Assembly (NCBI RefSeq): GCF_000177375.1
Contig: NZ_ADFR01000004.1
Location: forward strand, 1 to 36,066
Source: Bulleidia extructa W1219
GTDB lineage: Bacteria > Bacillota_I > Bacilli_A > Erysipelotrichales > Erysipelotrichaceae
Direction: 5' to 3'
Length of the DNA stretch: 36,066 nt
The position numbers and the translations under genes were made by a program. Positions 14,392-24,975 of this stretch are shown here, one piece after another. The notes under the pieces are model-generated. The model searched no databases. It worked only from the letters and a program-made list of their open reading frames with translations, and had not been told where the DNA came from. Numbering within the stretch: position 1 is the first letter of the stretch; each line of letters opens with the position of its first letter.

Positions 14392-15322
14392 TACAGATAA
14401 AGAAGTATTGATTTCAGCCAAGAATCTTGAGGTTACCTTCGGCTCTGGTCACAATAAATTTGTTGCAGTCAAAGATGTTAATTTTGATGTGTATCGGGGA
14501 GAAACATTTTCTTTGGTTGGAGAATCCGGATCAGGTAAGACGACGGTAGCGCGTGCTTTGATTCGTATTAATCCATTAAGTAATGGAGAAGTTATTTTTG
14601 AAGGAAAGAAAATTTCAGGAAAAATTTCTAAGGAATTGGATCACGAAGTGGTCAAGAAAATTCAAATGGTTTTTCAAGACCCGGCGGCTTCTTTAAATGA
14701 ACGTGCTACGATTGATTATATTGTTTCTGAAGGGTTATCTAACTTCCATTTGTATAAAAATGAAGAAGATCGTCGTAAAAAAGTTGTCAATGCTTTGACA
14801 GAGGTGGGTCTTCTGGAGGAACATTTATCTCGTTATCCACATGAATTTTCCGGTGGGCAGCGTCAGCGCATTGGAATTGCTCGTGCTATCATTATGGAAC
14901 CTGAATTGTTAATTGCAGATGAACCTATCTCAGCTTTAGATGTATCCATTCGTGCTCAAGTCTTGAATCTATTGAAGAAGTTACAAAAAGAAAGAAATTT
15001 GACAACGGTCTTCATTGCGCATGACTTATCGGTGGTTCGCTTCATCTCAGATCGTATTGCGGTGATTCATTTGGGTCGTATCGTAGAATTGGCGGAAACA
15101 AATGAGTTGTTCCGCAATCCATTGCATCCATACACACAATCGTTATTAGGGGCTGTTCCAATTCCAGACCCACAAATCGAAAAGAATAAAGTGGTTCCTG
15201 CTTATTCAACGGATTCTCATCATTATGAAACAGACAAACCAAGTTTCCAAGAAATTAAACCCGGTCACTTTGTTTGGGCAAATAAGACAGAAATGGATGA
15301 GTATCGCAAGAAATTAAAATAG
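14384..15322 (+). CDS. oppF: Oligopeptide ABC transporter ATPase (OppF/AmiF type)
   Basis: Second ATPase of the heterodimer, 312 residues. It has Walker [10 protein letters not shown]-loop [15 protein letters not shown], signature [15 protein letters not shown], and Walker [15 protein letters not shown]. The C-terminal region [16 protein letters not shown] is the standard oligo_HPY segment. Its ribosome binding site AAGGAGG lies inside the end of oppD, so translation is coupled. Last gene of the operon; a strong bidirectional terminator follows. Confidence 0.94.
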
Positions 15323-17489: not shown

Positions 17490-17700
17490 ATGATTACGAT
17501 GAACAGGACAAGCCGACTTGTTGAAAATATAGAGAGTCTTTGGTTGCTGGAAAAAGGCAAGAAAACAAGAAAAGGATATCACCTGGGAGTAAACGTGATT
17601 CTGCGTTAAGGAAAACAATGAAGGGTATGGTCTTTGACCATAAACTAAGGTGGTACCGCGTTCAATTAACGTCCTTAGAGGCAAGGGCGTTTTTCTTTTG
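17490..17700 (+). ncRNA. T-box riboswitch, isoleucine-specific, controlling ileS
   Basis: A tRNA-sensing leader. Stem I carries the AGAGAGTC (17531-17538) and GGTTGCTGG apical elements. The specifier is ATC (17578-17580) followed by ACC, reading tRNA-Ile. The T-box sequence AAGGTGGTACCGCG is at 17647-17660. The antiterminator pairs CTAAGG (17645-17650) with CCTTAG (17673-17678). The competing terminator pairs ACGTCCTT (17669-17676) with AAGGGCGT (17683-17690), then TTTTCTTTT. Uncharged tRNA-Ile would favour readthrough into ileS. The leader follows divIVA directly; I see no clear promoter of its own. Confidence 0.94.
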
Positions 17701-22493: not shown

Positions 22494-22515
22494 AAAAAAG
22501 CCTCATTTGAGGCTT
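22494..22515 (-). terminator. Terminator of metK
   Basis: On the minus strand AAGCCTC-AAAT-GAGGCTT is followed by a T run. The metK stop codon TGA (22505-22503) lies within the hairpin. Confidence 0.8.
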
Positions 22516-23600
22516 ATTTTTTTGAATTGTTCCCAAGGAAGATAGGGTTTGCCGAAGTGACCGTAATTGGTGGTTTGGGTATAAATTGGTCTTTCTAAGT
22601 CTAATTCTTGAATCATATTTTTCACCGAGAAATCAAAGTTCTTTTGAACAATGGCTTCTAATTCTTCATCGTTATAACGGGATGTACCAAAACTGTTTAC
22701 ATTGATAGAAATTGGCTTTGGCTTTCCAATCGCATAAGATAATTCAATTTGACATTTTTTAGCCAAACCATTGGCCACAAGATTTCGACAAACATATCGA
22801 GCGTAATAAGCGGCACTACGATCCACTTTAGTTGGATCTTTAGAAGAAAAACACCCCCCACCAATAGGAGCATAGCCACCATAAGTATCCACGACAATCT
22901 TTCGGCCGGTGGTTCCAGAATCTCCCCAAGAGCCTCCTATGACAAAGGAACCGGACGGATTAATGAAGAACTTGGTGTCTTTATCTATCAATTCTGGATT
23001 GACCACATGGGCAATCACTTGTTCCTGAATCAAATTTTTTAGCTTTTCTTGTGTTAAGCTTTTACTGTGTTGAGTTGAAATAACAATAGTTTCAATCCTG
23101 GTTAGTTTGCCATCTTCGTACTCTACTGTCACTTGAGTCTTACCATCTGGTCCTAATAGAGTTGGATGTTGACGGCGAACTTGTTCCAAACGTTTCGCTA
23201 ACATATGAGCGCAATCAATCGCAAAAGGCATATAAGATTTGGTTTCATCTGATGCAAAGCCAAACATAATTCCCTGATCACCAGCGCTATATTCTTCGTG
23301 CGCAACAGCAGAATTGATTTCGGCTGATTGTTTATTTACCTTAAGGATTACATGGTATTCTTCCGGATAACCAATGTCTTTTAAGACTTTCTTGGCAATG
23401 CCTTCATAATCAATCTTGGCACTTGTTCCAGCTTCTCCATAAACGAAGATGGTATCGTCTTTGATGGTCGCCTCGACAGCCATGTGGGCTTTTGGATCTT
23501 GGGTCAAAGCCGCATCTAAAATGGAATCCGCAATCAAATCACAGATTTTGTCCGGGTGTCCGGAAGTCACGGATTCGGATGTAAAGTAATATTTTGCCAT
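22503..23600 (-). CDS. metK: S-adenosylmethionine synthetase
   Basis: Makes S-adenosylmethionine from methionine and ATP in the cytosol. The 365-residue protein starts AKYYFTSESVTSGHPDKICD (ATP and methionine site). It has GDQGIMFGFA and later GGSWGDSGTTGRKI with the glycine-rich loop, then GGGCFSSKDPTKVDRSAAY, all MetK signatures. It is slightly shorter than usual (380-400), mainly in loops. The ribosome site AAAGGAG (minus strand, about 23616-23610) is inside a hairpin of the upstream SAM leader. The start is supported by the conserved N terminus. Confidence 0.96.
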   Translation of the reverse strand: MAKYYFTSESVTSGHPDKICDLIADSILDAALTQDPKAHMAVEATIKDDTIFVYGEAGTSAKIDYEGIAKKVLKDIGYPEEYHVILKVNKQSAEINSAVAHEEYSAGDQGIMFGFASDETKSYMPFAIDCAHMLAKRLEQVRRQHPTLLGPDGKTQVTVEYEDGKLTRIETIVISTQHSKSLTQEKLKNLIQEQVIAHVVNPELIDKDTKFFINPSGSFVIGGSWGDSGTTGRKIVVDTYGGYAPIGGGCFSSKDPTKVDRSAAYYARYVCRNLVANGLAKKCQIELSYAIGKPKPISINVNSFGTSRYNDEELEAIVQKNFDFSVKNMIQELDLERPIYTQTTNYGHFGKPYLPWEQFKKISLK

Positions 23601-23607
23601 AATAAAA

Positions 23608-23750
23608 AGCTCCTTTCCTATGTCTTACATGAGTAGTGAAAGAGCTTATAAATCTTTTCTCTTTCTTCATCGTTGTCAGCTGTACCACCTTGCCGATGCA
23701 GGTTGGTATGAGATCATAGAGCTGACTCTCTTCCTCATTCTTGATAAAAG
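23608..23750 (-). ncRNA. SAM riboswitch (S-box-like, compact, P4-less) controlling metK
   Basis: The minus-strand leader reads like SAM-I in order. P1 strand CTTTTATC (23750-23743) pairs with GATGAAG. P2 has ATGAG and CTCAT arms around a hairpin AGAG-TCAG-CTCT. J2/3 is ACCAACC; P3 has the TGC-ATCG-GCA tip and AAGGTGGTA, the equivalent of AAGGTGCTA. The P2 loop GTCAGC can pair with GCTGAC downstream (pseudoknot). P4 is absent. The expression platform holds AGCTCTTTC (23646-23638), which can pair either with AAGAAAGAG, whose GAAAGAG core is at 23665-23659, or with GAAAGGAGCT (23617-23608), which contains the metK ribosome site and is followed by TTTTTATT. SAM would favour the second, off, form. 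The family call is by pattern, not by covariance search. Confidence 0.78.
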
Positions 23751-23758
23751 ACTTTTAT

Positions 23759-23787
23759 TTTATAGCATGTAAAAAATGGACTGTCAA
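23759..23787 (-). promoter_or_regulatory. Promoter of metK
   Basis: On the minus strand TTGACA (23787-23782), spacer of 17, TATAAA (23764-23759) with extended -10 TGC. The best promoter in the window; the SAM leader begins shortly after. Confidence 0.88.
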
Positions 23788-23809
23788 ATGAAGTGTTCTA
23801 CGTTATAAT
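23781..23809 (+). promoter_or_regulatory. Promoter of the AI-2E family gene
   Basis: CTGTCA (23781-23786), spacer of 17, TATAAT (23804-23809). Its -35 box occupies almost the same bases as the metK -35 box on the opposite strand. Confidence 0.65.
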
Positions 23810-23826
23810 AAGCAAAAGGAGTGCTT

Positions 23827-24975
23827 ATGAATTGGAAAAACATAAAACCGGAAACAAAAGAATTGATACGAGCAATTACGATTTCCGGGATGATATTGAT
23901 TGTATTTTATTTTGCAATTAGCTATATACCGCTTCTTGCGCAATTATGGTCTAATGTTGTTAGGGCTTTAATGCCATTTGTATTTGGCTTTGTGTTCGCT
24001 TTTTTGTTGAACCCTATTCGAAAAATCGTGGAATACAATGTATTAAAATCGGTTCACTGGAGTGCCAGGATTAAAAGGGTATTTGCCAGTTTGGTATCTA
24101 TTTTGGTGTTTTTATTGGTGTTAGTGGCTTTCTTTGCTATTTTGATTCCTCAATTATATGCCAGTGTCCAAACGTTTTCGAGTGCGTTCCCTAGGTATAT
24201 GCAATCAGGATATCGGTATTTGGAAAGTTTACCGCTGAATCTCAATGAAGTATGGAAATACCTTAATGAAGCCTTACAAACGTTTGTGCAATCTTTGCAA
24301 AGGTGGTTAACATTAAATAGCGCCGGTGGATTGAGTCAGTTGTACTATTCGGCGGTATCGTTTGCAAGAGGTATTTTAGATTTCTTTATTGGTGTGATTA
24401 TTGCTTTTTATATTTTGTTGGATGAAGAAAAGTTGAAGTCACAATTGCGCAAAGTGGTGTTTTCAGTCATTCCTTTTAAAAGGGCTACCAGCTTTTTTAA
24501 GGTATGTCGCATGATTATTGATAATTTTAATAATTTTATTGCCGGCAAAGCCTTGGATTCTTTGATTATTGGTATCATTTGTTATGTGGGATGTTTAATT
24601 TTAGGGATTCCATATGCCCCATTGGTATCGGTGATTGTTGGCGTTACTAATATGATTCCGGTGTTTGGACCATTTATCGGTGGTATTCCATTAACCATCA
24701 TGGTGGCTTTGATTCATCCGTTGCGAGGATTAACTTTAGGCATCTTCATCTTTGTTTTACAACAAGTGGATGGCAATATCATAGGACCAAGAATTCTAGG
24801 TTCCGCAGTTGGTCTACCTTCTATTTGGGTCATGTTTTCTATTATTGCCGGTGGAGCGTTATTTGGGATTGTAGGAATGGTGATTGGTGTTCCACTATTT
24901 TCGGTGATTTATATACTGGTTCGTAATAAGACAAACGAACGTTTGGAAGAGAAAAAAATCAAATTAAAAGGCTAG
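23827..24975 (+). CDS. AI-2E family transporter / permease
   Basis: A polytopic membrane protein of the AI-2E transporter family (PF01594). I start at the ATG at 23827 behind AAAAGGAG, giving 382 residues; the in-frame GTG at 23821 overlaps that site. Membrane segments appear at about residues 13-33, 38-60, 75-98, 150-175, 205-235, 240-270, 275-305 and 320-350. The family signature region GVTNMIPVFGPFIGGIPL is followed by a second helix pair containing QQVDGNIIGPRILG. Members have been tied to autoinducer or ion export; the substrate here is unknown. It is divergent from metK. Confidence 0.88.
   Translation: MNWKNIKPETKELIRAITISGMILIVFYFAISYIPLLAQLWSNVVRALMPFVFGFVFAFLLNPIRKIVEYNVLKSVHWSARIKRVFASLVSILVFLLVLVAFFAILIPQLYASVQTFSSAFPRYMQSGYRYLESLPLNLNEVWKYLNEALQTFVQSLQRWLTLNSAGGLSQLYYSAVSFARGILDFFIGVIIAFYILLDEEKLKSQLRKVVFSVIPFKRATSFFKVCRMIIDNFNNFIAGKALDSLIIGIICYVGCLILGIPYAPLVSVIVGVTNMIPVFGPFIGGIPLTIMVALIHPLRGLTLGIFIFVLQQVDGNIIGPRILGSAVGLPSIWVMFSIIAGGALFGIVGMVIGVPLFSVIYILVRNKTNERLEEKKIKLKG

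Follow-up and report, generated by a model that had tools for sequence, protein, structure and literature searches.

The window, by which we mean the whole stretch of 36,066 nucleotides of Bulleidia extructa W1219 that was analysed, carries the methionine adenosyltransferase gene metK on the minus strand, and all elements described here for positions 23608-23750 lie on this strand upstream of the gene. The closest named relatives of its product are from Solobacterium and other Erysipelotrichaceae, with 71-75% identity. A likely sigma-A promoter was read from the sequence, having been missed by a strict scan that accepts only a -10 box ending in T. This promoter puts the start of the metK transcript at about 23752, which is the likely position, so that the 5' strand of P1 would lie at the extreme 5' end of the RNA. 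A promoter-like site on the plus strand (23781-23809) overlaps the inferred metK promoter and would serve a divergent membrane-protein gene (23821-24975) that is similar to YtvI/AI-2E transporters. Further away, a T-box leader (17490-17679, plus strand; RF00230, 101.9 bits) is located directly 5' of ileS. The features of the metK leader are the following:

22503-23600, minus strand: metK, methionine adenosyltransferase (TIGR01034, 475.8 bits, cutoff 309.4)
23601-23617, minus strand: 3' arm of the off hairpin, with the metK Shine-Dalgarno (SD) sequence and a U-tract at 23608-23601 (sequence, leaders of the genus)
23622-23626, minus strand: AAGAC box in the loop of the off hairpin, complementary to the 5' strand of P1 (found in all 25 leaders of the genus)
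23638-23647, minus strand: switching strand AAGCUCUUUC, 5' arm of the off hairpin (covaries with the SD arm)
23659-23665, minus strand: putative antisequestor or antiterminator strand GAAAGAG, overlapping the end of P1 (7 bp with CUCUUUC)
23664-23750, minus strand: SAM-I aptamer without P4, 87 nt (RF00162)
23749-23743 with 23671-23665, minus strand: P1 stem (sequence, alignment)
23665-23671, minus strand: P1 3' strand (alignment)
23672-23680, minus strand: long-range pair G23680-C23672 in the place of SAM-I U64-A85, closing the would-be P4 stretch (covariation)
23675-23679, minus strand: 3' strand of PK-1, CUGAC (covariation)
23684-23707, minus strand: P3 with the putative SAM-binding core ACCAACC / GGUGGU (alignment, core check)
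23708-23738, minus strand: P2 with kink-turn and P2b (three-base bulge 23718-23716, then G.A and A.A)
23722-23726, minus strand: 5' strand of PK-1, GUCAG, in the P2 loop (5 of 5 pairs covary, 99% paired)
23743-23752, minus strand: GUCUUUUAUC, containing the P1 5' strand, at or near the 5' end of the transcript and complementary to the box before the SD
23759-23787, minus strand: likely sigma-A promoter (TTGACA 23787-23782, spacer of 17 nt, TATAAA 23764-23759)

The SAM model of Rfam 15 (RF00162) matches positions 23664-23750 on the minus strand with 48.2 bits (E = 3.2e-8; gathering score 44.4), and this is the only SAM-I match in the whole 1.42 Mb genome. Since Rfam already catches these RNAs, the element as such is not unknown. 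The whole model (1-108) is matched, with only a few bases left in place of its P4 segment. The aptamer shares P1, the kink-turned P2, P3, PK-1, the core bases G11, A45, A46, U57, G58, A6, U7, A87 and U88 and the position before metK with SAM-I, but differs from it in having no P4, in a PK-1 of five pairs, in a covarying Watson-Crick or wobble pair in place of U64-A85 and, in the genus of the window, in an off hairpin merged with the SD. In SAM-I, P4 has been described as carrying the receptor for the P2 loop (PMC3651934, PMC4316175). In the window, the two sides of the closing pair are separated by no more than the five-base pseudoknot strand and about 2 nt, too little to accommodate P4.

A survey of the family gave SAM-I matches in 201 of 272 genomes. 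Among 91 aptamers that were retrieved, the distance from the end of P3 to the end of P1 is 20-22 nt in 73, to which the window aptamer belongs, and at least 30 nt with an evident P4 in the other 18; a few of the 73 were re-trimmed, their cmsearch ends having overrun or fallen short. The covariation alignment comprised 71 distinct P4-less aptamers and was scored on the named structure, which forms standard pairs in 97.1% of the cells and shows two-sided changes at 18 of 25 pairs. Its covariation score is 0.524; shuffles gave 0.207, with none of 500 reaching the observed value, and slid partners did not exceed 0.116. PK-1, between the P2 loop and J3/4, P2, P3, P1 and the long-range pair all covary, and PK-1 is paired in 99% of the cells with two-sided changes at all five pairs. 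The original prediction, which had proposed a SAM-I type of about 90 nt with no space for P4 before the P1 3' strand and had named covariation of P2, P3 and the pseudoknot as one of its checks, is thus borne out on each of these points, whereas its six-base pseudoknot requires a correction: both strands are present (GUCAGC, 23726-23721; GCUGAC, 23680-23675) and the inner five pairs GUCAG/CUGAC covary, but the leading G pairs with the C at 23672 instead. This pair joins J3/4 to the base before the P1 3' strand and occurs as G-C in 53, G-U in 13, A-U in 3 and C-G in 2 of the RNAs, with no mispair among the 71. We take it to be the positional counterpart of the SAM-I U64-A85 contact, in the numbering of the T. 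tengcongensis structure. Pairing of position 64 with a C of P2b was considered as well and rejected, because position 64 changes together with position 85 and the P2b base stays C.

Downstream of the aptamer, AAGCUCUUUC has two alternative partners, as had been predicted, namely GAAAGAG (23665-23659) beside P1 and GAAAGGAGCUU (23617-23607), which holds the SD AAGGAG (23615-23610) and is followed by UUUUUAUU before the AUG at 23600. Nearly all metK leaders retrieved from the genus have the same layout, with GAAAGAG at the end of P1, CUCUUUC, the AAGAC loop, the SD, a U-run and the start codon, and one (L129) has an altered yet still complementary version of it. When the arms were permuted among 25 leaders of this genus, the native combinations of the CUCUUUC arm and the SD arm gave a summed energy of -272.5 kcal/mol as opposed to a permuted mean of -210.8 (sd 8.8), and none of 20,000 permutations was as low. 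The outer pairs of this sequestor change together (AAGCUC/GAGCUU, AAUCUC/GAGAUU, ACCUC/GAGGU, AACUC/GAGUU, AGUC/GACU), and the stem over the SD region that had been postulated is supported by covariation. In almost every leader of the genus CUCUUUC is also complementary to the antisequestor strand, and this candidate second stem of GAAAGAG and CUCUUUC is conserved, though too nearly invariant for covariation to bear on it.

We consider it highly probable that the element is a P4-less SAM-I-type riboswitch which represses metK when SAM is plentiful by means of a terminator and an SD sequestor merged into one hairpin. With SAM bound, P1 would keep its own 3' strand, leaving CUCUUUC free for the SD region, and the resulting hairpin with its U-tract could stop transcription and would also hide the SD of any message that reaches full length. 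When SAM is absent, the P1 3' strand and its GAAAGAG extension would take CUCUUUC and leave the SD open, and the freed P1 5' strand could pair with the AAGAC box. In the aptamer, PK-1 and the pair between J3/4 and P1 would fill the place of P4. As metK encodes SAM synthetase, the gene would be under feedback control by SAM.

The platform can also be read as purely translational, with the same aptamer, a hairpin that hides the SD and a U-tract that is nothing but an A/T-rich spacer. With its bulge and its loop of about 20 nt, the off hairpin is weak for a terminator, the spacer from the SD to the AUG is short, and a terminator scan, which allows loops of 3-8 nt only, found none. However, almost every leader of the genus has a U-run of at least four immediately after the SD arm, and in sister genera an ordinary terminator is found at the same position with a separate SD downstream. 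We hold control by translation alone to be unlikely, but to deserve serious attention. The arrangement in the sister genera also marks the merging of the two functions as a feature of the genus of the window. Hiding of the SD on SAM binding is known from the Xanthomonas met riboswitch, likewise of the SAM-I type, which differs in being a typical SAM-I RNA with P4 that also reads tRNA (PMC7270179).

For the merged terminator and sequestor, nearest-neighbour energies in the window are -15.9 kcal/mol for the off state, -12.3 for the on state and -16.3 for the on state with the AAGAC pairing, so that the two states are balanced only if this pairing is included. When the 3' part was left to fold freely, the sequestor prevailed although the antisequestor strand was included (SD 3% open), and the on state must consequently depend on the folding order or on the extra pairing. 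The AAGAC box is complementary to GUCUUUU of the P1 5' strand. A long-range pairing of the 5' region with the SD may occur in Bacillus metK leaders. Several other genera have a box directly before the SD and outside the terminator that is complementary to their own P1 5' strand, with compensating changes (leaders L136, L155, L161, L169 and L235). A permutation test on P1 5' strands and pre-SD boxes, carried out with the terminator arms left out, gave pairing at least as good as the native in 108 of 50,000 permutations across 21 genera (p ~0.002), a signal that falls to about 5% without the three strongest genera. In the window, the pairing is weak (-5.6 kcal/mol) and its own partner ranks 12th of 21, and for some relatives the transcript may begin only within the complementary stretch, which calls for caution. 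The second exchange, between the P1 5' strand and the AAGAC box, is proposed tentatively. Complementarity of the P1 5' strand to the terminator arms, as seen in other leaders, was set aside as a trivial result of the three-strand exchange.

With regard to the ligand, the bases of the SAM-I core are invariant in the 71 P4-less RNAs including the window, except A46 with 93%. The bases that contact SAM in SAM-I are G11, C44, A45, A46, C47, U57, G58, A6, U7, A87 and U88. A changed ligand, such as SAH or another SAM-like compound, would fit the altered periphery and the position of a sister subtype before genes without an obvious link to methionine, but the conservation of the SAM-contacting core and the location of the window copy before metK make it very improbable.

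The kink-turn signature is kept, with the three-base bulge, G at 1b in 70 of 71, A at 2b in 71 of 71 and A at 1n in 70 of 71 RNAs; position 2n of the window is A instead of G, an exchange with which folding has been demonstrated in SAM-I (PMC4316175). Position 64, a U in SAM-I, is G in 66, A in 3 and C in 2 of the 71 RNAs. A J3/4 uridine has been counted among the marks separating SAM-I from SAM-IV (PMC7270179). Of these marks, the window RNA has the kink-turn and the lack of an extra pseudoknot; it does not have P4 nor, if position 121 of that study corresponds to U64 as we infer, the J3/4 uridine, and is thus classed as a variant of SAM-I and not as a standard member.

Membership in the SAM-IV or SAM-I/IV families, for which the base at position 64 and the absence of P4, also known from SAM-IV (PMC6890682), could be cited, is very improbable. 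SAM-IV (RF00634) shares a PK-1 of about five pairs, but has P5 and PK-2 and no standard kink-turn (PMC6890682), and a search of the genome with its model at E up to 10 found nothing. SAM-I/IV (RF01725) shares the clan and the core, but keeps P4 and is without PK-1 and the P2 internal loop (PMC6890682, PMC2864571), and its score of 27.8 bits is below the cutoff of 41.1. The window RNA has both the kink-turn and the P2 internal loop, and no signal of PK-2 was obtained between the P3 loop and the 3' flank, where permuted combinations were at least as good in 95%. That the element is a degenerate, non-functional SAM-I remnant, as its Rfam score barely above cutoff might suggest, has hardly any probability and is refuted by the strong covariation and the uniform length of 73 aptamers from many genera.

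Searches with a covariance model built for the P4-less form covered the family and other families of the class. High-scoring matches of about 81-98 nt were found throughout the family of the window, and also in several other families, including genomes of 0.8-0.9 Mb; the sequences retrieved from other families share the short tail. The P4-less aptamer is located before metK in dozens of relatives, whereas metK leaders of other lineages, mostly Clostridia, kept P4 in 47 of 47 parsed cases, and a Fictibacillus metK leader (L079) contained no such riboswitch. The metK subtype GGUGGU..GCURACANCGAU occurs in 20 of 395 genomes of the class, in this sample only in the family of the window, and the reversed-pattern control gave 0. 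The P4-less form is a widespread trait of the lineage, shared by numerous related gut bacteria and their relatives with small genomes, and not a one-off. A description of SAM-I RNAs that naturally lack P4 was not found among the open-access papers searched; an earlier description elsewhere is possible.

We put forward, as a proposal that may well prove wrong, that the P4-less RNAs stand between SAM-I and SAM-IV as a widespread and structurally distinct branch of the SAM clan, with PK-1 and the pair between J3/4 and P1 taking over from P4, and that the metK subtype in its on state hands both P1 strands to new partners: the antisequestor would receive the 3' strand, and the box beside the SD the 5' strand. 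A large natural set of RNAs working without P4 would reveal the minimal SAM-I core that still functions, demonstrate that the P2-loop receptor does not depend on P4 and connect SAM-I with SAM-IV, and such RNAs offer short, easily tested constructs. The platform would combine a terminator, a cover of the SD and possibly both strands of P1.

A second P4-less subtype, CAUAAAGAG...GACAAGC...GCAGCAACC...GGUGCUAANGCUUG, has a compact CCAUC/GAUGG terminator (L190-L217, L027, L116, L147). The genes downstream of it, which have no evident connection to methionine, are priA, gltX, those for MoxR-like AAA ATPases and an ECF transporter S component, and many that encode small proteins lacking a Pfam match. 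P4-less SAM-I copies in the genomes of 0.8-0.9 Mb (L200, L201, L203, L204, L209) are located upstream of unknown proteins, and the downstream reading frames read UGA as Trp; for reduced, Mollicute-like genomes of this type, regulation by SAM-I seems unusual. Tandem SAM-I matches about 70-80 nt apart were observed in two genomes, at 14418-14503 and 14571-14666 on contig C50 of genome G261, where a copy of P4-less length stands beside one with P4, and at 1889981-1890082 and 1890160-1890261 on contig C1 of genome G394.
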